Positions 4,658 through 26,433 of a stretch of 64,000 bases of DNA are shown here, piece by piece. The notes under the pieces were generated by a model. The model was not told the DNA's origin and searched no databases. It saw only the letters and a list, made by a program, of their open reading frames with translations. The DNA comes from Euryarchaeota archaeon Ods02 (GTDB lineage Archaea; Halobacteriota; Halobacteria; Halobacteriales; Halorutilaceae). The DNA lies in the NCBI GenBank assembly GCA_028751075.1, contig JAQZDA010000004.1, positions 1 through 64,000 on the forward strand, in the 5' to 3' direction. Within the stretch, counting starts at the first letter, position 1. Each line of letters starts with the position of its first letter. Both the position numbers and the translations under genes were made by a program.

Positions 4658-5095
4658 ATGGGTATATACGCAGTCAAGACGACGGCGAGCCAGGAGCAGA
4701 CGGTAGCGGACATGCTCGCCGACCGCGACAACCCAGGCATCTACAGCGTCCTCGTCCCCAGCGATGTCACCGCCTACGTCCTTGTGGAAGCACGTGACAC
4801 GGACGACGTCGAGTTCGCCATCGAACGCATCCCCCACGCACACACGATGGTCGAAGGCGAGACCTCGATGCAGGAGGTCGAGCACTTCCTCACACCGAAA
4901 CCCAGCGTCAGCGGCGTCAACGAAGGCGACGTCGTCGAGATCATCAGCGGGCCGTTCAAGGGAGAGAAAGCACGGATCAAACGCATCGACGAAAGCAGCG
5001 ACGAGGTCACCGTCGAGCTCCACGAAAGCACGGTGCCGATACCCGTCACCGTCCGCGGAGACCACATCCGCGTGCTCGACAGCGACGAGCGGTAG
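4658..5095 (+). CDS. spt5: transcription elongation factor Spt5 (archaeal NusG)
   Basis: RNA polymerase processivity factor that binds the clamp across the DNA cleft. The 145-residue protein has an N-terminal NGN domain (MGIYAVKTTASQEQTVADML through ERIPH) and a C-terminal KOW domain with the hallmark VNEGDVVEIISGPFKGEKA. Length is normal for archaeal Spt5. It is cotranscribed with secE, separated by only three bases, linking secretion and transcription genes as in most archaea. Confidence 0.95.
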   Translation: MGIYAVKTTASQEQTVADMLADRDNPGIYSVLVPSDVTAYVLVEARDTDDVEFAIERIPHAHTMVEGETSMQEVEHFLTPKPSVSGVNEGDVVEIISGPFKGEKARIKRIDESSDEVTVELHESTVPIPVTVRGDHIRVLDSDER

Positions 5096-5211
5096 AACGT
5101 CGAATCCGTTCATCCTGAAGACCCCCCACCCTGCGGAACCCTCACATGTTCGACCGATGTAACTAAAACCCTGTGAGACGCATAGCCAGCGAGGAAGGGG
5201 AGCTCCACCGC

Positions 5212-5979
5212 ATGTCAGAGGAACTGGACACCGACGAGCTGGAGCAGGAGGTCAAGGAGATATACCGCTCCGTCGCCGAGGAACCCGACGACGACTACCA
5301 CTTCGAGATGGGGCGACCGCTCGCGGAACGGCTCGGCTACCCCTCCGAGGACCTCGACCGCGTCCCACCGGAGGCATTGGAGTCGTTCGCCGGCGTCGGC
5401 TACCACCTCGACCTCGCGGAGCTCGACGCGGGCGACGACGTACTCGACCTCGGCAGCGGCAGCGGAACCGACGTCTTCGTCGCCGCCCAAGACGTTGGAG
5501 ACGGCGGCAGCGTCACCGGAGTGGACATGACCCCTGAGCAGATAGAGAAGGCGCAGGCGCTCGCCGACGAAAACGGCTTCCACAACGTCACCGTGCGGGA
5601 GAGCTACATCGAGGAGCTGCCGTTCCCCGACGCGTCGTTCGACGCCGTCGTCTCCAACGGCGTCATCAACCTGTCGGCGGAGAAACAACGGGTGTTCGAC
5701 GAGGCCGCAAGGGTGCTCCGAAGCGGCGGCACGCTCGCGGTCTCCGACATCATCAGCGAGCAGCGGATGCCGGACAGCATAAAATCTGACGCCGACCTCT
5801 GGGCGGCGTGCATCGGCGGCGCCGCGGAGGAGGACAGCTACACCGAGATGATAGATGACGCCGGCCTCGAGGTGACCGACGTCGTCGAGAACAACGAGTA
5901 CAAGTTCATCAGCGAACGCGCACAGGGCGCGTGCAGCAAGTACGGCGTCAAGAGCGTCAGCGTCGCCGCCGAGAAGTAG
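5212..5979 (+). CDS. SAM-dependent methyltransferase, ArsM-like
   Basis: Class I methyltransferase of 255 residues. SAM-binding motif I reads VLDLGSGSGTDVFVAA, followed by GVDMTPEQIEKA (motif II) and the post-motif segment VVSNGVINLSAEKQRVFDEA. This arrangement and the WAACIGGA segment resemble arsenite methyltransferases and MerR-associated relatives. Two cysteines are present (WAACIGG and QGACSKYG), but the N-terminal cysteine pair of classical ArsM is absent, so arsenic methylation is only a possibility. ATG 5212 is preceded by GGGGAG at suitable spacing; an in-frame GTG exists at 5173. It stands alone, with no ars genes nearby. Confidence 0.7.
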   Translation: MSEELDTDELEQEVKEIYRSVAEEPDDDYHFEMGRPLAERLGYPSEDLDRVPPEALESFAGVGYHLDLAELDAGDDVLDLGSGSGTDVFVAAQDVGDGGSVTGVDMTPEQIEKAQALADENGFHNVTVRESYIEELPFPDASFDAVVSNGVINLSAEKQRVFDEAARVLRSGGTLAVSDIISEQRMPDSIKSDADLWAACIGGAAEEDSYTEMIDDAGLEVTDVVENNEYKFISERAQGACSKYGVKSVSVAAEK

Positions 5980-17766: not shown

Positions 17767-18549
17767 CTACTTCTCGTCTTCGTCGTCGGTTAGGTCGGGC
17801 TGGGGTGCGTCGGCTTCGGGACCCGTGTCTTCGGCGCTGGCCTCCATCTGGCCTTCGTCGGGCGCGGGGATGCCGCCGCCTCCCGTGTCTCCTGCATCCG
17901 ACGGTTCCTCCGACGGTGTTTCGGATGGATCCGTCGTCCTTTCTTCGCCGACGTCTACGTCGGTTCGGGTCTCGACGGCTTCGGCTGTGGCTTCGCCCTC
18001 GCTCTCTAGCTCCTCCTGTATCTCGTCGGCGTCCATCTCGCCCTCCTGAAGCATCTCCTCGTACCGTTCGGCTTTCTTCCGTATCTCGTCGATGTCCTCG
18101 TCCTGCTCTACCTCGGTCTCGATGACGGTCTCCTCCTCCTGTATCCACGCTATGCAGAGGCTGCCGCCGATCATGCCGAGCAGGGTGCCGAGGCCGAGGC
18201 CGCCGAAGGTTCCGCCGACGATGCTGAGTATCGCCATCACGATGCCTGTGAGGCCCGCCAGCGTGCTTATCTGCGGTATCGACAGGGCTGCTATGCCGCT
18301 GAGGAAGACGAAGAACGCGAACAGCATCCCGATGAGTCCGATTACTTCGCCGGTGCCGCCGGTGAACGCGAAGCCTTCGAGGGTGACGAGGGGGATGTAC
18401 GCGAGCACGAGGCCGCTCAATATGAGCAGTACTCCGCCCCAGAAAGGCCGTTGAGCCTTCCAGTCGTCGAACTTCGCTTTCCGGCTCTCGTATCCCCTGT
18501 ATCCCTTGACCACGGGTTTGAGGACGGTCTTCGTCGCCTGTGAAACCAT
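17767..18549 (-). CDS. DUF6114-like four-helix membrane protein
   Basis: Protein of 260 residues. After a basic N-terminus, PFWGGVLLILSGLVLAY opens the first of four hydrophobic helices (about residues 34-54, 70-92, 98-118, 122-142), followed by about 115 residues of Glu/Asp/Ser-rich coiled and disordered tail. The RPFWGGxLLILxG start and four-helix plan resemble the DUF6114 family, known from actinobacteria next to DUF6230 secreted proteins. Here it stands directly downstream of six DUF6230-like genes on the same strand, which supports the pairing. Function is unknown. Family name is from memory of the pattern, not a search. Confidence 0.65.
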   Translation of the reverse strand: MVSQATKTVLKPVVKGYRGYESRKAKFDDWKAQRPFWGGVLLILSGLVLAYIPLVTLEGFAFTGGTGEVIGLIGMLFAFFVFLSGIAALSIPQISTLAGLTGIVMAILSIVGGTFGGLGLGTLLGMIGGSLCIAWIQEEETVIETEVEQDEDIDEIRKKAERYEEMLQEGEMDADEIQEELESEGEATAEAVETRTDVDVGEERTTDPSETPSEEPSDAGDTGGGGIPAPDEGQMEASAEDTGPEADAPQPDLTDDEDEK

Positions 18550-18571
18550 TGTATGGTGTGTACGTCTCCGG

Positions 18572-18580
18572 TACTATAAG
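18572..18580 (-). promoter_or_regulatory. TATA-like element for the DUF6114-like gene
   Basis: On the minus strand CTTATAGTA is centred 27 bases before ATG 18549, predicting a leaderless transcript separate from the upstream surface-protein gene. Confidence 0.5.
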
Positions 18581-18606
18581 TATTCGGCTGAACGCTCCGT
18601 GGTTAC

Positions 18607-19446
18607 TTAGGGAACCGGGCAGCCATCTTCACCCAGCACTGCGTCGGGGTCGGCGTCACCTTCGTTCTCGTACCACTCCAGGTCGAGGCTGAGGTAGGGC
18701 ATCTCGAGCACGCTGAAGCTCAGGAAGTGCGCTCTCGCGCTCGCACCCTCTATCACTACGAGGTTGTCATCGTCCTCTGCTGTACCGGTGACGACGAACT
18801 CGCCCTCTGGTCCGAGACGGGGGTTTTCGCTGCTTCCGTCGCTGAAGCTCTCCCTTATCTCGGTGTCGAACGCCTGCAGGTGGTCTGCTTCGAGCGCGGT
18901 GACGTGGAGCGCTGCGTCACCGAGGGTGATGTTTCCAGGTTCTTCACCGTCCTGCTGACCGAGGTTTACGCGGACCATCTCCATCCCCGTTATCTCGGGC
19001 ACCGGTATATCTTTGAAGAAAGACAGGTCGCTGCCTTCCGGCACGTCTGCGTCGGTTATCTCGGCTCTCAGCTGCGGCAGCGTCGTGCCGTCCATGTCGG
19101 CGTCAGAGTATCCGTCTGCGTCGGTGAAATCGCCGCTTGTGGCTTCGCTGGGGCAGGCGGCTGTGGGTCCGAGCGCGGGGTATATCTCAACGTCTTCACC
19201 AACTAGCTCGTCTATCTCGGCGCCGAACCCTCCGATTCCGCTGACGCCGATGATCGCCAGAGCTCCGCTCGTGGAGACGATCAGCACGGCGACCATCACT
19301 GCGAGGACGAGGGACGCACCCACGGAGCCGAAGAAGATACGCCGGTTGGTCTCGGTGCGCTTCTCAGTCCTGACGTCTCTCCGCACGTGACCCTGCCACT
19401 TGTAGCGGTCTTCACGTAGTTCTTCCAGCTCTTCTTTGTCGAACAT
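18607..19446 (-). CDS. single-pass surface protein, DUF6230-like paralogue A
   Basis: Protein of 279 residues: about 40 charged N-terminal residues, one membrane helix (ASLVLAVMVAVLIVSTSGALA), then a glycine-rich GVSGIGGFGAEIDEL and an exported acidic domain. It shares the paralogue pattern: IYPALG followed by a cysteine (AACPSE), then LSFFKDIPVPE, MVRVNLG, a LHVTALEADHLQAFD segment and ARAHFLSFSVLEMPYLSLDL, with a second cysteine near the C-terminus (GEDGCPVP). The most divergent of the six same-strand copies. Role unknown; the domain lies outside the cell if the helix is a signal anchor. Confidence 0.7.
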   Translation of the reverse strand: MFDKEELEELREDRYKWQGHVRRDVRTEKRTETNRRIFFGSVGASLVLAVMVAVLIVSTSGALAIIGVSGIGGFGAEIDELVGEDVEIYPALGPTAACPSEATSGDFTDADGYSDADMDGTTLPQLRAEITDADVPEGSDLSFFKDIPVPEITGMEMVRVNLGQQDGEEPGNITLGDAALHVTALEADHLQAFDTEIRESFSDGSSENPRLGPEGEFVVTGTAEDDDNLVVIEGASARAHFLSFSVLEMPYLSLDLEWYENEGDADPDAVLGEDGCPVP

Positions 19447-19500
19447 TCTTTGGTTGGGTAGACCTCAGACCGACTGTCGTGCGCGCTACTACACACCCTT

Positions 19501-19511
19501 ACAATATAAAG
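19501..19511 (-). promoter_or_regulatory. TATA box for surface paralogue A
   Basis: Minus strand CTTTATATTGT lies about 55-65 bases before ATG 19446; a second TATA-like CTATAAAGG at 19521-19530 is just upstream. The leader would be about 30-50 bases. Confidence 0.5.
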
Positions 19512-19699
19512 CTTGTTGACCCCTTTATAGTGTAATCGTGACCTCTTCATGAGGACGCATCACCCGGGTCTTCAGGGACGGAACAGGGACGACGAGTCCG
19601 CTTCAAACCCCCCCGCGGAACCACAGGTTCCCCCGCGTCTCTAAAACACACTAAGCCAGCAGAGGGGTTCACATCTGAATCGGGATGTAGCCGAGATCC

Positions 19700-20536
19700 T
19701 CAGCCAGCGGCGTCCTCATCAGGGTATCCGTCGTAGATACCTGTGCCTGACATGTTGGCTATAGCCTGACACGTCATCTCGTCGACGTCGAGCGGGTTGA
19801 CGGCGGGTAGCTCGTCGAACTTGGTGGTGTTCACGAGCTGTACGCCGGGGCTGAGGGCGGGGACGTCGACGGAGGAGAACGCCACCATGTAGGTGACGGC
19901 GGTGCCGTTCGTTATCACTGCGCCGTCCTCCGCAGTGACCTTGAACTCGCCTCCTCCCGTGGAGTTACCCAGCGCATCCCCAACCCCTGTGAGGCCATCA
20001 ACCCAGAGTCCCTCCGCTCCATCTTCAGTGGAGACGTTCGAGGTCTCCCCGAGGGATGTATCCTGCAGAGTCAGCATCTGGCTGTTGAACGCCGTCATAC
20101 GCATGCCGAGGTCGTCTACGTCGAGCTCGCCGTCGCCGGTGGAGACGTCGACGCGGACGATGGTGTCGGCGGTGTAGTTGCTGGCTGGGAGCGGGAGGTC
20201 CTTGTAGATGGTGAGGCCTTCGCTGACGGTGGCGGTGCCCGTCATCGTCGCCTGCATCTGAGGTGCTTCAGGGCACTCCTGCTGGTCGCCGAGCGCGGGA
20301 TCCAGGTTCATGGTGCCTCCTGTGGCGTCGACGTGTCCGAACGACGTGACGAATCCGCCGAGGCCTGCGCCGAGCACGGTGCCGAACATCCCCATGGAGA
20401 GCACAGCGATGAGTATGAGGACGAGCAAGGTGCTGGAGAACGCTAGAACGCGGAAGAAGCTTCTACGGGACATCCCTCCCTCCGTGTCCCTGATAGACAT
20501 CTCGACCTTACCTCGGTCGTCTGGTCCCCTGCTCAT
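19700..20536 (-). CDS. single-pass surface protein, DUF6230-like paralogue B
   Basis: Protein of 278 residues. After a basic stretch (MSRRSFFRVLAF) comes a membrane helix followed by SMGMFGTVLGAGLGGFVTSF, the array's glycine-rich anchor motif. The exported part keeps LDPALGDQQECPEAPQM with the first cysteine, GLTIYKDLPLPASNYTADT, VRVDVSTG, DLGMRMTAFNSQMLTL, and TAVTYMVAFSSVDVPALSPG. A second cysteine (DEMTCQAIANMSG) is near the C-terminus. The two cysteines probably pair outside the cell. It has its own TATA box, so it is not simply cotranscribed. No known function. Confidence 0.72.
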   Translation of the reverse strand: MSRGPDDRGKVEMSIRDTEGGMSRRSFFRVLAFSSTLLVLILIAVLSMGMFGTVLGAGLGGFVTSFGHVDATGGTMNLDPALGDQQECPEAPQMQATMTGTATVSEGLTIYKDLPLPASNYTADTIVRVDVSTGDGELDVDDLGMRMTAFNSQMLTLQDTSLGETSNVSTEDGAEGLWVDGLTGVGDALGNSTGGGEFKVTAEDGAVITNGTAVTYMVAFSSVDVPALSPGVQLVNTTKFDELPAVNPLDVDEMTCQAIANMSGTGIYDGYPDEDAAG

Positions 20537-20563
20537 CTATAGTAGGTTAAGTTAACATTTCAG

Positions 20564-20574
20564 CCATATAAATC
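20564..20574 (-). promoter_or_regulatory. TATA box for surface paralogue B
   Basis: Minus strand GATTTATATGG is centred 33 bases before ATG 20536, giving a predicted leader of about 6 bases. The same GATTTATA core precedes paralogue C. Confidence 0.6.
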
Positions 20575-20700
20575 TCTCGTCGCTGGTGCTATCTTCTGGC
20601 TTCAGAGACCGGCACTGAAGGACGGTGTTCGTGACGCGAGAAAGGAAGGATAGTTCGCCTGTTCGCCTGACTGAGAGGTGTCAGCCCTGTTCAGCGGTGG

Positions 20701-21570
20701 TCAGGGGTAGCTGTCGTATAGGTCGGGCGAGCTGGCGGTGGCGAGAGCGTCACACGTGCGGTCAGCGGGGTCTACGTGGCGTTGTGCAGGTGTGCCTTCA
20801 GCTTCGAAGTCACCGTCGTCACCCATGGTTATGAATATGTCGAGGTTGTTCAGCGTGGCCGACGAGAACGCGACGTGGTGCGCTGCGGCGAGGCCGTCGT
20901 CTATCGTGACGTTAGAGCCTTCGGGGATGCTGATACCGAACTCGACGTTGTCAGCGAGCTCGTCACCCGCGAGGGTCTGGACCTCACCGCCGTCGACTCC
21001 GTAGGAGTCGTAGGCGTCACCTGTCTCGTCTCCGAAGTCGCTGAACTCGCTTATCTCGACGTCTGCGTCAGGGTCGACGGAGTTGCTGGCGTCGAGGATG
21101 AGCGCGGAGGCGTTGAGCGCGCTGAGCCGGAGGTCAAGGTCCTCTAGCTCGAGGTCCTGTGGGTCGTCGCTCACGATGTTGATGCGCGCGACATCTACGT
21201 TGAACGTGTCAGGCAGCGGCAGGTCCTTGTAGAAGGCGACGTGCTGGTCTACCTCAGCGGTGCCGGGGAAGTACGCCATCAGCTGCGGTGCTTCGTCACA
21301 CGCGGGCTGTTCTCCGAGGACAGGGTAGAGCGCTCCGTCGTCGCCGTCGAGCTCCGCGTTGACCTCTCCGAAGCTCGCTATGAAGCCGCCGATACCTACT
21401 CCGAGCGCCGCGGACAACATTCCCACGGACAACACTGTCACCAACAGCAGCGTCATCGCGGTCGCGCCTATACCCATCCATTTCGCGAACGATCTGCCGT
21501 CGGTCTCTCCGACGTCGTCGCGATAGGTTATCTCGATCGTCTTGTTCGTTCTGTCTGGTCTATCTGACAT
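20701..21570 (-). CDS. single-pass surface protein, DUF6230-like paralogue C
   Basis: Protein of 289 residues with a cytoplasmic N-terminus (MSDRPDRTNKTIEITYRDD), one helix, then SVGMLSAALGVGIGGFIASF. The exported domain has LYPVLGEQPACDEAPQLMA, VAFYKDLPLPDTFNVDVAR, LEDLDLRLSALNASALIL, and AAHHVAFSSATLNNLDIFI, and ends with a second cysteine (RTCDALATASSPDLYDSYP). ATG 21570 is preferred to GTG 21585 because the leader before it (GAGGTGACCAGAGACACA) is similar to that before paralogue F. Closest to paralogue F in the array by motif wording. Function unknown. Confidence 0.72.
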   Translation of the reverse strand: MSDRPDRTNKTIEITYRDDVGETDGRSFAKWMGIGATAMTLLLVTVLSVGMLSAALGVGIGGFIASFGEVNAELDGDDGALYPVLGEQPACDEAPQLMAYFPGTAEVDQHVAFYKDLPLPDTFNVDVARINIVSDDPQDLELEDLDLRLSALNASALILDASNSVDPDADVEISEFSDFGDETGDAYDSYGVDGGEVQTLAGDELADNVEFGISIPEGSNVTIDDGLAAAHHVAFSSATLNNLDIFITMGDDGDFEAEGTPAQRHVDPADRTCDALATASSPDLYDSYP

Positions 21571-21615
21571 TGTGTCTCTGGTCACCTCGTACGTGAGCGC
21601 ACATTTCTACCCCAC

Positions 21616-21626
21616 CCGTATAAATC
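21616..21626 (-). promoter_or_regulatory. TATA box for surface paralogue C
   Basis: Minus strand GATTTATACGG is centred about 50 bases before ATG 21570, predicting a leader of about 24 bases that contains a GAGGTGACC purine-rich site. Confidence 0.55.
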
Positions 21627-21671
21627 TTTCGTGGCTTGCCGGCGGGGTGTGTGGGGATTCAGGACTCTGCT

Positions 21672-22493
21672 CTACTCCGCGAGGTCCTCGCAGGCGTCGC
21701 CGCCGTCGACGACGCGTGGGTCGAGGCCGTCGAACTGGCTCTCGCTCCCTATCAACACCGCCATGTTGAGGTCAGGCAGCGACAGCTCGCTCACCGCGAC
21801 CGCGTGCGCGACAGCGACACCCTGTTCTATGTAGAAGTTGTCCTCGCCTTCCGCGCCCAATCCGAACTCGTAGTCGGCGTCGTCGAAACCCACCTCTCGC
21901 TGCTGGCTGAACCTGTCGTGTTCGTCGCCTTCACCGCTCGTGCCCTCCCAGGTGTCGGGACCGAACTCCCGCAGCACCACGGGTTCCCCGCCGCCCCCGA
22001 ACTCCGCGTAAGCGGCTTCCAACGCGGTGACGCGGAGGTCGAGGTCGTTCACCATGGCGACGTCGTCCTCGGGGATGTCGGATTCGATGGCGACCCGTAC
22101 GACCTCGGCGTCGGTGAAGTCACCGGGTGTCGGCAGGTCCTTGTAGAACCGGACGTGGTCACCTATCTCGACCTCTCCCTCTATGACGGCTTTCAGCTGC
22201 GGCAGGTTCTCACACGCGGGGTGTTCGTCGATGACGGGGAAGATGGTGCCGCGGTCGGCCTCCACGGTGCCGAACTCCGCGACGAACCCACCGGTGCCGC
22301 CGCCGTAGATAGAGCCGAGGGCGGGACCCGTCAGCAGTCCCATGGTGACGAGGATGCTGAGGAAGACGGTGGAGACAGCGAGGGTGCCGGTGAACTGGTC
22401 GCGGTCGACGCCGCCGTACTGCTTCCTCCGGACGCGCTGTCTCCGGGTGTAGCTAGGTCTACCCGTGGACGTATCGGAGTCAGCGGTGGCCAT
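21672..22493 (-). CDS. single-pass surface protein, DUF6230-like paralogue D
   Basis: Protein of 273 residues: basic N-terminus (YTRRQRVRRKQYGG), helix around AVSTVFLSILVTMGLL, then GSIYGGGTGGFVAEFGTVEA. The exported domain contains IFPVIDEHPACENLPQLKA, VRFYKDLPTPGDFTDAEVV, NDLDLRVTALEAAYAEFG, a loop EFGPDTWEGTSGEGDEHDRF not found in A-C, AVAHAVAVSELSLPDLNMAV and a final GGDACEDLAE. Start ATG 22493 is conventional; a TTG at 22544 would add 17 residues. Nearly identical to paralogue E outside the first 35 residues, implying a recent duplication. Confidence 0.72.
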   Translation of the reverse strand: MATADSDTSTGRPSYTRRQRVRRKQYGGVDRDQFTGTLAVSTVFLSILVTMGLLTGPALGSIYGGGTGGFVAEFGTVEADRGTIFPVIDEHPACENLPQLKAVIEGEVEIGDHVRFYKDLPTPGDFTDAEVVRVAIESDIPEDDVAMVNDLDLRVTALEAAYAEFGGGGEPVVLREFGPDTWEGTSGEGDEHDRFSQQREVGFDDADYEFGLGAEGEDNFYIEQGVAVAHAVAVSELSLPDLNMAVLIGSESQFDGLDPRVVDGGDACEDLAE

Positions 22494-22714
22494 CTGCTTC
22501 TCCGTCGGACGGCTTAATCCGGTGTCTTCTGCTTGGTCTTTCAACTAGTCCCACACCTTCCTTCAGACGGACGCTACCTCGGTTTACGCCGTCTTCTTAC
22601 GTAAGCCCTGCGGAAGAAGTCGGGGACGGCGAGGGGTTACGCCTCGTATGCACGGCTACAGAGGGTTCTGGAGCGGCTGCACGAACGGATGCTCGCTGTA
22701 GAATGGCGTCGCGG

Positions 22715-23617
22715 TCACTCGGCGAGGTCTTCGCAGGCGTCGTCGCTGTCGACGACGCGTGGGTCGGGGGCGTCGAAGTCATCTTCCGCGCCTATCAGTA
22801 TCGCGGTCTGTAGATCCGGCAAAGATAGCTCGCTGACTGCGACGGAGTGAGCGACAGCGACACCGCGGTCTATGAAGAAGTTGTCGTCGCCTTCCGCGCC
22901 TAATCCGAACTCGTAGTCGGCGTCGTCGAACCCGACCTCACGAGCCTGGCTGAACCTGTCGTGTTCGTCGCCTTCTCCGCTCGTGCCTTCCCAGGTGTCT
23001 GGGCCGAACTCCCGGAGGACGACGGGTTCCCCGCCTTCTTCACCGAGCTCGATGTACTCGGCTTCTAACGCGGTCATCCGGAGGTCGAGGTCGTTGACGA
23101 ACGCGAGCTCTCCATCGGGTATCTCTGATTCGATGGCGAGACGCACTATGTCGGCGTCGGTGAAGTCACCCGGCGTCGGCAGATCCTTGTAGAACCGGAC
23201 GTGGTCTCCGATCTCTACGTCGCCGTCGATGACGGCTTTCAGCTGCGGGAGGTTCTCGCACGCAGGGTGTTCGTCGATGACGGGGAAGATCGTGCCTTCA
23301 CCGGCTTCGACGGTGCCGAACTCCGCGACGAAGCCGCCGGTGCCGCCGCCGTAGATGCTGCCGAGCGCGGGACCCGTCAGCAGCCCCATGGACACGATTA
23401 TCGCGAGGAAGACGGCGGATACGGCGAGGGTGCCGGTGAACTGGTCGCGGTGGACGCTGCCGTACCGTTTGGTCTTGAACCGTCGGGTGGTAGTGTGGGT
23501 TCGACGGGGTGCGGGTGCGGAGGCGGTGGAGCCTGCGGGGGTGCCGCCGTCGCTGGCCGCGGTCATCCTGTCGGCGTCAGGCCGGGGTGGCGTGGTGTCG
23601 GCGGCGTCTTCAGTCAT
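22715..23617 (-). CDS. single-pass surface protein, DUF6230-like paralogue E
   Basis: Protein of 300 residues. The first 50 residues are Ala/Thr/Pro-rich and differ from paralogue D; from DQFTGTLAVSAVFLAIIV onward the two match closely, including GSIYGGGTGGFVAEFGTVEA, IDEHPACENLPQLKAVIDG, FYKDLPTPGDFTDADIV, EFGPDTWEGTSGEGDEHDRF and the terminal DDACEDLAE. Own TATA box at 23672-23682. Two conserved cysteines, one on each side of the exported domain. Role unknown; surface exposure is inferred from the single N-terminal helix. Confidence 0.72.
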   Translation of the reverse strand: MTEDAADTTPPRPDADRMTAASDGGTPAGSTASAPAPRRTHTTTRRFKTKRYGSVHRDQFTGTLAVSAVFLAIIVSMGLLTGPALGSIYGGGTGGFVAEFGTVEAGEGTIFPVIDEHPACENLPQLKAVIDGDVEIGDHVRFYKDLPTPGDFTDADIVRLAIESEIPDGELAFVNDLDLRMTALEAEYIELGEEGGEPVVLREFGPDTWEGTSGEGDEHDRFSQAREVGFDDADYEFGLGAEGDDNFFIDRGVAVAHSVAVSELSLPDLQTAILIGAEDDFDAPDPRVVDSDDACEDLAE

Positions 23618-23671
23618 TCTATCGTGTTCTCCCCGTCGCGCCCTCTAGACGTGAACTAACTAAAGGGCTTT

Positions 23672-23682
23672 CCTATATAAAG
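23672..23682 (-). promoter_or_regulatory. TATA box for surface paralogue E
   Basis: Minus strand CTTTATATAGG, the strongest TATA match of the array, is centred 60 bases before ATG 23617, predicting a leader of about 33 bases. Confidence 0.6.
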
Positions 23683-23736
23683 ATTGGTCTTGCAGGGGTT
23701 CTGCGTTCAACCCCTCCAGCCATCCGAGGTCATAGG

Positions 23737-24120
23737 CTACCCGCCGCCTCGTTCCCCAGAGTCCTCTGGTTCGCCGTCGACGTCCTCCGTCTCAGCCCCC
23801 TTTGCTGACCCTTCCACCGGTGTCTCTTCCCCTGCGTCGTCTGCGTCGTCTCCCCCGGCGTCCTCTGCTTCACCCGTCGACTCGGTGCCGCCGGAGGTCG
23901 TGGATGACCCGCTTTCGTCTTCGCCGAAGACGATGACGAGGCCGACGACGACGAATGCGGCGCCGAGCCAGGGGATCCATCCGATGTCGAGTTCTGCGCC
24001 GAGCACTCCGATGAGGGCTCCGCCGAACATCCCCAGCATGAACAGGAGGACGCCGACGGCCATCAAAAGGTATCCCCAGAGAGTGGCCGAGGCATCTATC
24101 TCGGTTGCTTCGTTCTCCAT
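23737..24120 (-). CDS. small two-helix membrane protein within the surface-protein array
   Basis: Protein of 127 residues beginning MENEATEIDASATLWGYLLM. Two hydrophobic helices (about 15-40 and 49-67, WIPWLGAAFVVVGLVIVF) flank a short loop with ELDIGW; the remaining 60 residues are a disordered Glu/Asp/Gly/Ser tail. No cysteines. It lies between surface paralogues E and F on the same strand. The architecture (helices then acidic cytoplasmic-type tail) parallels the DUF6114-like protein at the other end of the array, so it may be an accessory membrane partner. No family recognised. Confidence 0.65.
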   Translation of the reverse strand: MENEATEIDASATLWGYLLMAVGVLLFMLGMFGGALIGVLGAELDIGWIPWLGAAFVVVGLVIVFGEDESGSSTTSGGTESTGEAEDAGGDDADDAGEETPVEGSAKGAETEDVDGEPEDSGERGGG

Positions 24121-24295
24121 GGGGTTTCAGAAGCACGGCTATCTCTTACGTCTAACGGTGGAAGCGGGAGAGCGCGCTGGAGAGGAAAGAAGACCAGTTC
24201 GATCCAGCTGTCGCTGTCGGGCTGTGTAGTCGTCAGAAAGGTCCGAGGCCGCGTCTTCGTCGCCTACAGACGGGTTAGTTGGCGGGCGTTACAGC

Positions 24296-25135
24296 TTAGT
24301 CGAAGTACGGTGTCTCGGGCGAGTCGGGGTTGCTCTCCGTTGCGAGCTCGTCACAGTCAGCTCCACCGTCAACCTGACGAACTGCAATCTCATCGTCGCC
24401 AAGGGGGTCGCTCTCGAAGTCGGTTTCCTCACCGATGAGGACCGCCATGCTGACGTCCTGAAGTCCCTCGAGAGCCTGGAACGACACGGAGTGAGTGACA
24501 GCTGTACCGCTGTCTATCGTCATTCCGCCATCTCCTCCGCTGACTGCGATACCGAACTCGGCGCTACCGTCGATGTCGTCGATGCCGGTTATGTCCTCGT
24601 CGGGGTCAGCGTACGCGTCCTCGGCACCTTCAGTACCGGTGCGCTCGAACTCCTGGATGTCGACCTCGGAGTCCGCGCCGTCGGTGGCGTCACCGAGGTT
24701 GAGCTCGTCAGCTACGAGCGCTGTGAGCCTTAGGTCGAGGTCGGTCGCATCGACCTCGTTAGTACCTAAGTCGGACTCTATGGCTACGCGCGCCAGATCA
24801 GCGTTTGTGAAGTCGTCCGGCAACGGCAGGTCCTTGTAGAACGCTACTTCCTCCGTTATCGTCGCTTCACCGTCGATGCTCGCCATCAGCTGTGGCGCGT
24901 TCTCACACGCGGGGTTCTCCCCGAGCACGGGGTATATCTGTGCGTTTGCGTCGCTGGCGTCTACGTGGCCGAACTCCGCCACGAAGCCGCCGATACCTAC
25001 TCCGAGCGCCGCGCCGACCATACCAACGGAGAGTATGGTCACCAGCATGATCGCGAGGAACAGCGATCCCATCGCCATCGCTCCCGCGACCTTCCTCTTA
25101 TCGTACGAGTTGTCGTGATTCGGTTTGTCTGTCAT
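24296..25135 (-). CDS. single-pass surface protein, DUF6230-like paralogue F
   Basis: Protein of 279 residues, the most upstream copy in the direction of transcription. MTDKPNHDNSYDKRKVAGAM leads to a helix and SVGMVGAALGVGIGGFVAEF. The exported domain carries IYPVLGENPACENAPQLMA, VAFYKDLPLPDDFTNADLAR, TDLDLRLTALVADELNLGD, TAVTHSVSFQALEGLQDVSM and a second cysteine (GGADCDELATESNPDSPET). The motif wording makes it the best representative of the family consensus. Preceded by a strong TATA box. Function unknown. Confidence 0.72.
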   Translation of the reverse strand: MTDKPNHDNSYDKRKVAGAMAMGSLFLAIMLVTILSVGMVGAALGVGIGGFVAEFGHVDASDANAQIYPVLGENPACENAPQLMASIDGEATITEEVAFYKDLPLPDDFTNADLARVAIESDLGTNEVDATDLDLRLTALVADELNLGDATDGADSEVDIQEFERTGTEGAEDAYADPDEDITGIDDIDGSAEFGIAVSGGDGGMTIDSGTAVTHSVSFQALEGLQDVSMAVLIGEETDFESDPLGDDEIAVRQVDGGADCDELATESNPDSPETPYFD

Positions 25136-25180
25136 GTTTGTTGGTCACCTGCAAACCGTGTGGGCACATTAAGAGGCAAT

Positions 25181-25190
25181 GTATATAAAG
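25181..25190 (-). promoter_or_regulatory. TATA box for surface paralogue F
   Basis: Minus strand CTTTATATAC is centred about 50 bases before ATG 25135, predicting a 23-base leader with an AGGTGACC site. Between this box and the next gene (25191-25424) I see no coding region. Confidence 0.6.
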
Positions 25191-25424
25191 GTTGTGGAGG
25201 GGCTGTGACCGCAAGAAGGCGGCGGGATACACCAAGTCACCCCGGCCGAAACCGCCCCTCAGATAAATACCCTTCGACCGCCGGCGACGGCGGACGGCGC
25301 GCGAACAACACCCCCACACGACACCCCGCACGACACACCGCAGGCGCAGGCCCCGACATAAAGCCACCCAGAGATAGACACGTTCGACGCCGCAGACCAA
25401 CAGCTCCGACGGAGACAGAAACCG

Positions 25425-25601
25425 CTATCCACCTAACGCTATAGACAGCCACCAGAACACCAGGAACCCCGCGAACATCAGGAAGAACACGAGGAACGCT
25501 ATGTTCTCCTTCCGGTTCTTGTTGAACTCCCTGACGATATACTCCATAAACGACTCGTCGTCACCGTCGACGTCAGCTTCAACGTCCTCGGACTCAGACA
25601 T
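25425..25601 (-). CDS. small single-helix membrane protein (58 aa)
   Basis: Begins MSESEDVEADVDGDDESFME, continues with a basic stretch (REFNKNRKEN) and ends in one strongly hydrophobic helix IAFLVFFLMFAGFLVFWWL, a tail-anchor layout. ATG 25601 is used; the frame is open upstream to 25709 but the extra residues are not halophile-like. No family recognised. It lies at the edge of the surface-protein array, between paralogue F and the divergent copy on the plus strand. Confidence 0.55.
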   Translation of the reverse strand: MSESEDVEADVDGDDESFMEYIVREFNKNRKENIAFLVFFLMFAGFLVFWWLSIALGG

Positions 25602-25872
25602 ACACCCCGGTAAACCGCCACGGAACTTAGAGGCTTCGACGCAGACACCCTGAAACCCTGTGTAACAGACCCAAGACAGAGCCAGACAGCCATCACCCAG
25701 CCCTCGCAAACCCCCTCTATCTTTCTACACGCGCGGACGCGCGCGTAGACCCAACGCACGCACACCCAACGCCACTCACACCCAGGAACACATCTCAGCC
25801 AGAGAGACCCATCGAACCCCTCCTGCATCCGACCCGAAGATACTTGTGAAAGAATACATAAAGACACATAGA

Positions 25873-26433
25873 ATGGGGCGAACGCGCCGCCTCCACCTCC
25901 ACCTCACACTCCTCGGCTCCCTAGCCATCCTGCTCACGGTGGCTTACGCCGCCAGCGTCTACGGCGTCCCCCTCGCCACGTCCAGCGGAACCGGCGACGG
26001 AGTCTACGCCGAGATAGAGAAAGTCGAAGCCGACGACCTCTACCTCGAAGAACACCTACACGGCGTCGACAGCGACTGCGGATTCACCCGCCTCACCGTC
26101 AGAGACGCCACCTTCCACGGAGCCCGGTTCCACCGCAGCCTACCCAACCCCGCCGAAGACCAACCCGAAGACATCAGCTTCGAGTTCCAACGAGACCCCG
26201 TCAGCTTCGACGCCGTCCAGATGCTGGTCACCGACGTCAGCTTCAACGCCGTACGATGGACCGACGAAGGAGAGATAGACGACGAAGGCGGAGCCCTCGG
26301 CTTCAGCGGAACCGCGGAGATCCACGACTTCGAGACCGTCATCTACGACTTCAACGTCGAGGACTTCGACGAACCCATGCAGCAGACAGAGTTCCAACCC
26401 AGCGAAGAAGACGTCGAAGACGTCAGCTGCTGA
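25873..26433 (+). CDS. single-pass exported protein, divergent DUF6230-like member
   Basis: Protein of 186 residues with a basic start (MGRTRRLHLHLTLLG), one helix and an exported acidic domain. The order VYAEIEKVEADDLYL, then a cysteine (DSDCGFTRLTV), then FHGARFHRSLPNP, then a VQMLVTDVSFNAVRW segment and a C-terminal cysteine (EDVSC) parallels the array pattern of PVLGE-PAC, VxFYKDLPLP, DLDLRLTAL and final C. I infer a shortened, diverged relative of the six minus-strand paralogues. ATG 25873 is chosen; GTG 25846 is possible. Converging evidence is motif order only. Confidence 0.5.
   Translation: MGRTRRLHLHLTLLGSLAILLTVAYAASVYGVPLATSSGTGDGVYAEIEKVEADDLYLEEHLHGVDSDCGFTRLTVRDATFHGARFHRSLPNPAEDQPEDISFEFQRDPVSFDAVQMLVTDVSFNAVRWTDEGEIDDEGGALGFSGTAEIHDFETVIYDFNVEDFDEPMQQTEFQPSEEDVEDVSC

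Follow-up and report, generated by a model that had tools for sequence, protein, structure and literature searches.

A conserved six-member array of DUF6230-related proteins with a DUF6114 partner in a haloarchaeal genome, most likely a cell-surface complex

Introduction

The closest described relatives of the locus reported here are two protein families, DUF6230 (PF19741) and DUF6114 (PF19609), which occur side by side in Actinobacteria. In the literature, we found a single promoter paper for DUF6230 and nothing for DUF6114. The Streptomyces proteins annotated as cholesterol esterases are presumably DUF6230 members. According to the citing passage in PMC4098958, the name goes back to Xiang et al. 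2007, and SCO5420, which is annotated as a cholesterol esterase, showed an almost 37-fold rise on Tween (PMC7494193). Here, we describe a DUF6230/DUF6114 pair expanded to a six-member array, conserved in three genomes of a little-known uncultured lineage of salt-loving archaea, and propose that the locus is most likely a cell-surface complex. The window in which it was found has 64,000 nucleotides (the whole stretch of DNA analysed) and is contig C27 in a haloarchaeon-type assembly of 2.27 Mb.

Results and Discussion

Six paralogous genes and a DUF6114 gene form one array

On its minus strand, the window carried six paralogous genes (18607-25135) and then a gene for a DUF6114 protein (17767-18549), the last of an array that runs from 25135 to 17767. 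The original prediction, made from the DNA letters alone, had described six minus-strand genes of the same plan with a set of shared motifs; the genes lie where it had placed them, the motifs were found in the sequence, and the array of six paralogues plus DUF6114 is real. Position 1 (24296-25135) stands on the thiolase side of the array and was 43% identical to L045_516, a gene that adjoins a thiolase in sister genome G385. Position 2 (22715-23617) and position 3 (21672-22544) were tandem duplicates. The apparent start codon of position 3 was TTG, an assignment based on alignment of the upstream part of the gene to the N-terminal end of position 2. Position 4 (20701-21585) likely starts at an ATG at 21570 and was 61% identical to L044_2870. 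These four and position 5 (19700-20536) were classed as type A, and position 6 (18607-19446), which the A6 profile matched at E 1.8e-22, as a distinct type B. In the array lineage the type B gene always adjoined DUF6114.

Several genes of the array appeared to have promoters of their own. Of the eight TTTATA sequences that the 64 kb window holds on its minus strand, five were located 36-64 nt upstream of array genes, a placement with a chance of about 6e-9 given the window's own TTTATA frequency. On the minus strand, the TTTATA box of position 6 was at 19510 (19446-19515 with the interval to the gene), that of position 5 at 20572 (20536-20577) and that of position 4 at 21624 (21570-21629), and a box reading TTTATATA stood before both position 2 (at 23681; 23617-23686) and position 1 (at 25189; 25135-25194). 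A separate TATA box for each gene had been predicted. This was borne out for five of the seven genes (the six paralogues plus DUF6114), each with a strong box of its own, and not for position 3, with no TTTATA box upstream, or for DUF6114, preceded by CTTATA only.

Every paralogue began with a charged tail, continued through basic residues into a single hydrophobic helix and, after a GxGGF turn, had a head that was strongly acidic, with 59 D/E against 5 K/R in position 1, for example. Alignment of the core five paralogues gave 42 invariant columns, and even the most divergent pair of the array remained homologous (BLASTP E 2e-12), so the exported domains, whose lack of mutual similarity would have spoken against the original prediction, are related throughout. 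In the three genomes, the head of every full-length array member contained two cysteines and no more. Numbered from the glycine turn, the first fell near residues 29-33 and the second between residues 187 and 226, which suggests a disulfide; the second, C-terminal cysteine had already been noted.

The paralogues are a divergent branch of the DUF6230 superfamily

Searches of the six paralogues against Pfam and NCBIfam returned no family, and PF19741 gave no match at E ≤ 1 for any of them. The array profile, run against 394 genomes of the class, recovered relatives in two sister genomes, G220 and G385, and weak matches in 19 other haloarchaea, and several of the latter scored above the PF19741 cut-off. 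A scan of genome contigs gave one named relative, JAQZCZ010000088.1 of the metagenome-assembled genome Euryarchaeota archaeon Ods01. In profile-profile comparison, the array (A4) matched haloarchaeal DUF6230-like proteins (A6; 99.3%, E 2.7e-20), which in turn matched actinobacterial DUF6230 (A5; 94.9%, E 4.5e-8), while direct hhalign of A4 against A5 was not significant. The actinobacterial relatives were retrieved with a Streptomyces DUF6230 sequence that served as a probe only, and the results rest on the retrieved records, three of which were Pfam-confirmed. Since the matches chain through haloarchaeal intermediates and the direct comparison fails, profile evidence places the six paralogues in a divergent branch of the DUF6230 superfamily, not in PF19741 proper. 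Array and actinobacterial proteins share an N-terminal hydrophobic helix, a GF-turn, a predicted all-beta head with a common P/L signature, a C-terminal cysteine and linkage to DUF6114. The array proteins differ in lacking a PF19741 match, in the placement of their first cysteine and in standing six in a row, as opposed to one DUF6230 protein per DUF6114.

DUF6114 is the probable functional partner

The four-helix protein at the end of the array, which had been called DUF6114-like, is a true DUF6114 (PF19609, 82.8 bits against a cut-off of 27.9), with helices at residues 39, 69, 94 and 118. A likeness to actinobacterial DUF6230/DUF6114 pairs had also been suggested; it held directly for DUF6114, and for DUF6230 through the intermediates and not by direct HMM. 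The window protein is a clear family member in its helices and in its place downstream of DUF6230-like genes, and departs from the family in an acidic, coiled-coil-like C-terminal tail of about 120 residues, predicted to be cytoplasmic, and in serving as the one DUF6114 for six paralogues. An orthologue with 66% identity occupied the same place in G220.

Independent searches of a 146-genome sample of the class found DUF6114 and DUF6230-like genes in the same 14 genomes, which represent four genera only and were themselves used in part to build the DUF6230-like profile. Another 15 genomes, which had come up first with the array profile, all carried DUF6114. A DUF6230-like gene was located within 2.3 kb on the same strand for 31 of the 36 DUF6114 genes in the 146-genome sample, all four actinobacterial replicons carried a DUF6230 gene and then DUF6114, and DUF6114 adjoins the array as it does in DUF6230 pairs. 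Taken together, co-occurrence and neighbourhood are strong comparative evidence that DUF6230-like and DUF6114 proteins form a functional pair, tying an uncharacterised protein pair of Actinobacteria and Haloarchaea into an apparently obligate unit. With this support, we infer a partnership at the cell surface in which the two proteins may be in physical contact.

In L053, from another haloarchaeon, the DUF6230/DUF6114 genes were situated between rps12-rps7 and the aEF-2 gene (identified by Pfam), an odd site for surface-protein genes, and L051, L054 and L060 appeared to have the same placement, judged by gene lengths and order. In Streptantibioticus L062, the DUF6230 and DUF6114 genes were followed (about 4960-5621) by a third gene, for a secreted Cys-rich protein in which a beta-strand pattern repeats and for which no Pfam family was found, and similar-looking sequence followed DUF6114 in L063 and L065.

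The helix and head recur at the N terminus of giant proteins

Elsewhere in the window's genome (G000) and in other haloarchaea, the same helix-plus-head was found at the N terminus of far longer proteins. In G000, L046:583-10608 (contig C55) encoded a protein of 3341 residues with the DUF6230-like module first, GEVED and CARDB domains and no C-terminal anchor. A DUF6230-like protein of at least 1642 residues, running to the contig end, with GEVED domains and a 281-residue neighbour, was encoded at L047:4684-11783 (C49), and a divergent DUF6230-like pair of 733 and 270 residues at L048:4316-7681 (C53). In the 554-residue DUF6230-like protein encoded at L049:8188-9852, two PA14 stretches separated the membrane helix from the head.

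Another long relative had 658 residues and five PKD domains, and the orthologues of position 5 in G220 and G385 carried Ig-like tails. By hydropathy, the long forms have a single N-terminal helix and no C-terminal anchor, so the helix-plus-head module appears to tether adhesion-type domains to the membrane from the N terminus. The haloarchaeal proteins with PKD, PA14, CARDB or GEVED domains thus resemble the window's array members in helix and head and differ in their adhesion-type tails, of which the array members have none. By analogy, the domains of the long relatives point to a surface or adhesion role for the array, with a DUF6230-like head that would double as the membrane anchor of giant adhesion-type proteins. 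None of the DUF6230-like genes at L046, L047 and L048 adjoined DUF6114; the long proteins may therefore dispense with the partner or use one encoded elsewhere, in trans.

A proposed cell-surface complex and its alternatives

On balance, we think that the locus encodes a hetero-oligomeric DUF6230/DUF6114 cell-surface complex of six specialised subunits, with scaffolding or adhesion as its likely job. The six DUF6230-superfamily paralogues would each sit in the membrane by way of the N-terminal helix, a short conserved tail reaching into the cytoplasm and an acidic, all-beta, disulfide-bonded head facing outward. The DUF6114 tetraspan would be their common membrane partner, probably assembling or anchoring the paralogues, and most directly its type B neighbour. 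The six positions would be specialised subunits of one envelope structure, several with their own promoter, that may present or support surface structures (adhesion, matrix or S-layer-associated). Being conserved in three genomes, the array probably forms a previously unstudied complex of the cell envelope, and the proposal supplies predictions for two nearly undescribed families, namely a membrane complex and a requirement for DUF6114. More speculatively, and with some doubt on our part, the fixed six-subunit, DUF6114-anchored assembly may be a new archaeal envelope complex with a new fold; its minimal version, one DUF6230 plus one DUF6114, would be shared with actinobacteria and would, in other haloarchaea, generally anchor giant adhesins by their N terminus.

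The predicted fold of the heads allows another reading, in which the DUF6230-like head would be a beta sheet of the LolA/LmeA kind that binds lipid, and the DUF6230/DUF6114 set would carry lipid or other hydrophobic cargo between membrane and envelope, the cargo differing by paralogue. AlphaFold models of the head were all-beta (moderate quality, with an ectodomain mean pLDDT of 70 and a pTM of 0.67), with very long strands (E34-57 and E82-95) in keeping with this reading, and the A6 profile gave one weak match among PDB sequences, LolA chain 8v1k. At E 0.056 this match was not significant and was not used as evidence of kinship, and Foldseek comparison of two models with the PDB gave no fold match at E ≤ 0.001. 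No lipid-export genes were seen among the neighbours, and archaea have no outer membrane to supply. We therefore regard a lipid-carrier role as unlikely.

About as unlikely, in our estimation, is that the helix is a cleaved signal peptide, which would make the array products secreted matrix proteins and DUF6114 an export or processing helper. Possible A-x-A sites follow the helix in non-array haloarchaeal relatives (e.g., STGTAYA/AP), and a helix end of the TAYA/AP type, if it is a cleavage site, would make these relatives secreted; actinobacterial members have QGALA/ASF. In the array, by contrast, the hydrophobic stretch was about 30 residues long and preceded by cytoplasmic tails of up to about 60 residues, with motifs kept between species: YREDxGExDRRxFxG in several type A proteins and MFDxxELExxRE in type B. 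Such conservation speaks against a simple cleaved signal peptide and suggests that the tails contact a cytoplasmic partner.

The preferred complex of specialised subunits also has to be weighed against an antigenically or phase-variable set of surface proteins, used for example in virus evasion, for which tandem paralogues with separate promoters and the recent-looking duplicates at positions 2 and 3 would be suitable material. In both G220 and G385, six paralogues and DUF6114 recurred between hemC/hemD and a thiolase. G220 kept the gene order of the window, and in G385 the seven genes were spread across two short contigs that overlap at their ends within a single gene, which is thereby split. 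The recurrence expected of the array with its DUF6114 gene was thus found in both well-covered sisters. In the tree, positions 4, 5 and 6 joined positional counterparts from at least one sister genome (position 4 in a clade supported at 100/99, position 5 with X5/Y5 at 91/87 and position 6 in its own clade at 100/100), and position 6 was 57% identical to its positional orthologue in G385 and 38% to that in G220. Positions 2 and 3 were a younger duplicate pair (76.8% identical, dN 0.16, dS 0.63), and dN/dS of close pairs was about 0.18-0.28. These ratios and positional orthology across genera, with gene number fixed at six and order conserved, argue for specialised subunits and disfavour antigenic variation; the pattern of substitution fits six specialised subunits under purifying selection. 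A variable set is consequently improbable, and the variability suggested in the original interpretation, which was largely right, is not supported.

Least probable of all is an ester hydrolase function of the heads, as in the "cholesterol esterase" family of actinomycetes. The annotated Streptomyces esterases count in its favour only if they are DUF6230 proteins, and the columns conserved across array, haloarchaeal and actinobacterial ectodomains hold G, F, Y, P, K, E and L with no conserved Ser, His, Asp or Cys. With no hydrolase-type residue kept superfamily-wide, enzyme activity is unlikely for the array, whether or not some actinobacterial proteins have it.

Small membrane proteins and a possible distant cousin

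Two small helical membrane proteins had been proposed as partners of the array. Both are present, a two-helix protein within the array (23737-24120, minus strand) and a one-helix protein beside it (25425-25709). Neither is a conserved partner: the first had no relative in the sister genomes and is probably a passenger, and the second had no match in the sister loci. Further along, on the plus strand, 25846-26433 (L069) encoded an exported single-helix protein with a GxG turn, the sequence SLPNP and a C-terminal cysteine. Although its plan resembles that of the array proteins, profile comparison detected no similarity to them, so homology was not demonstrated. It had one relative, 26-27% identical and located away from the array in G220, and is possibly a very distant cousin.
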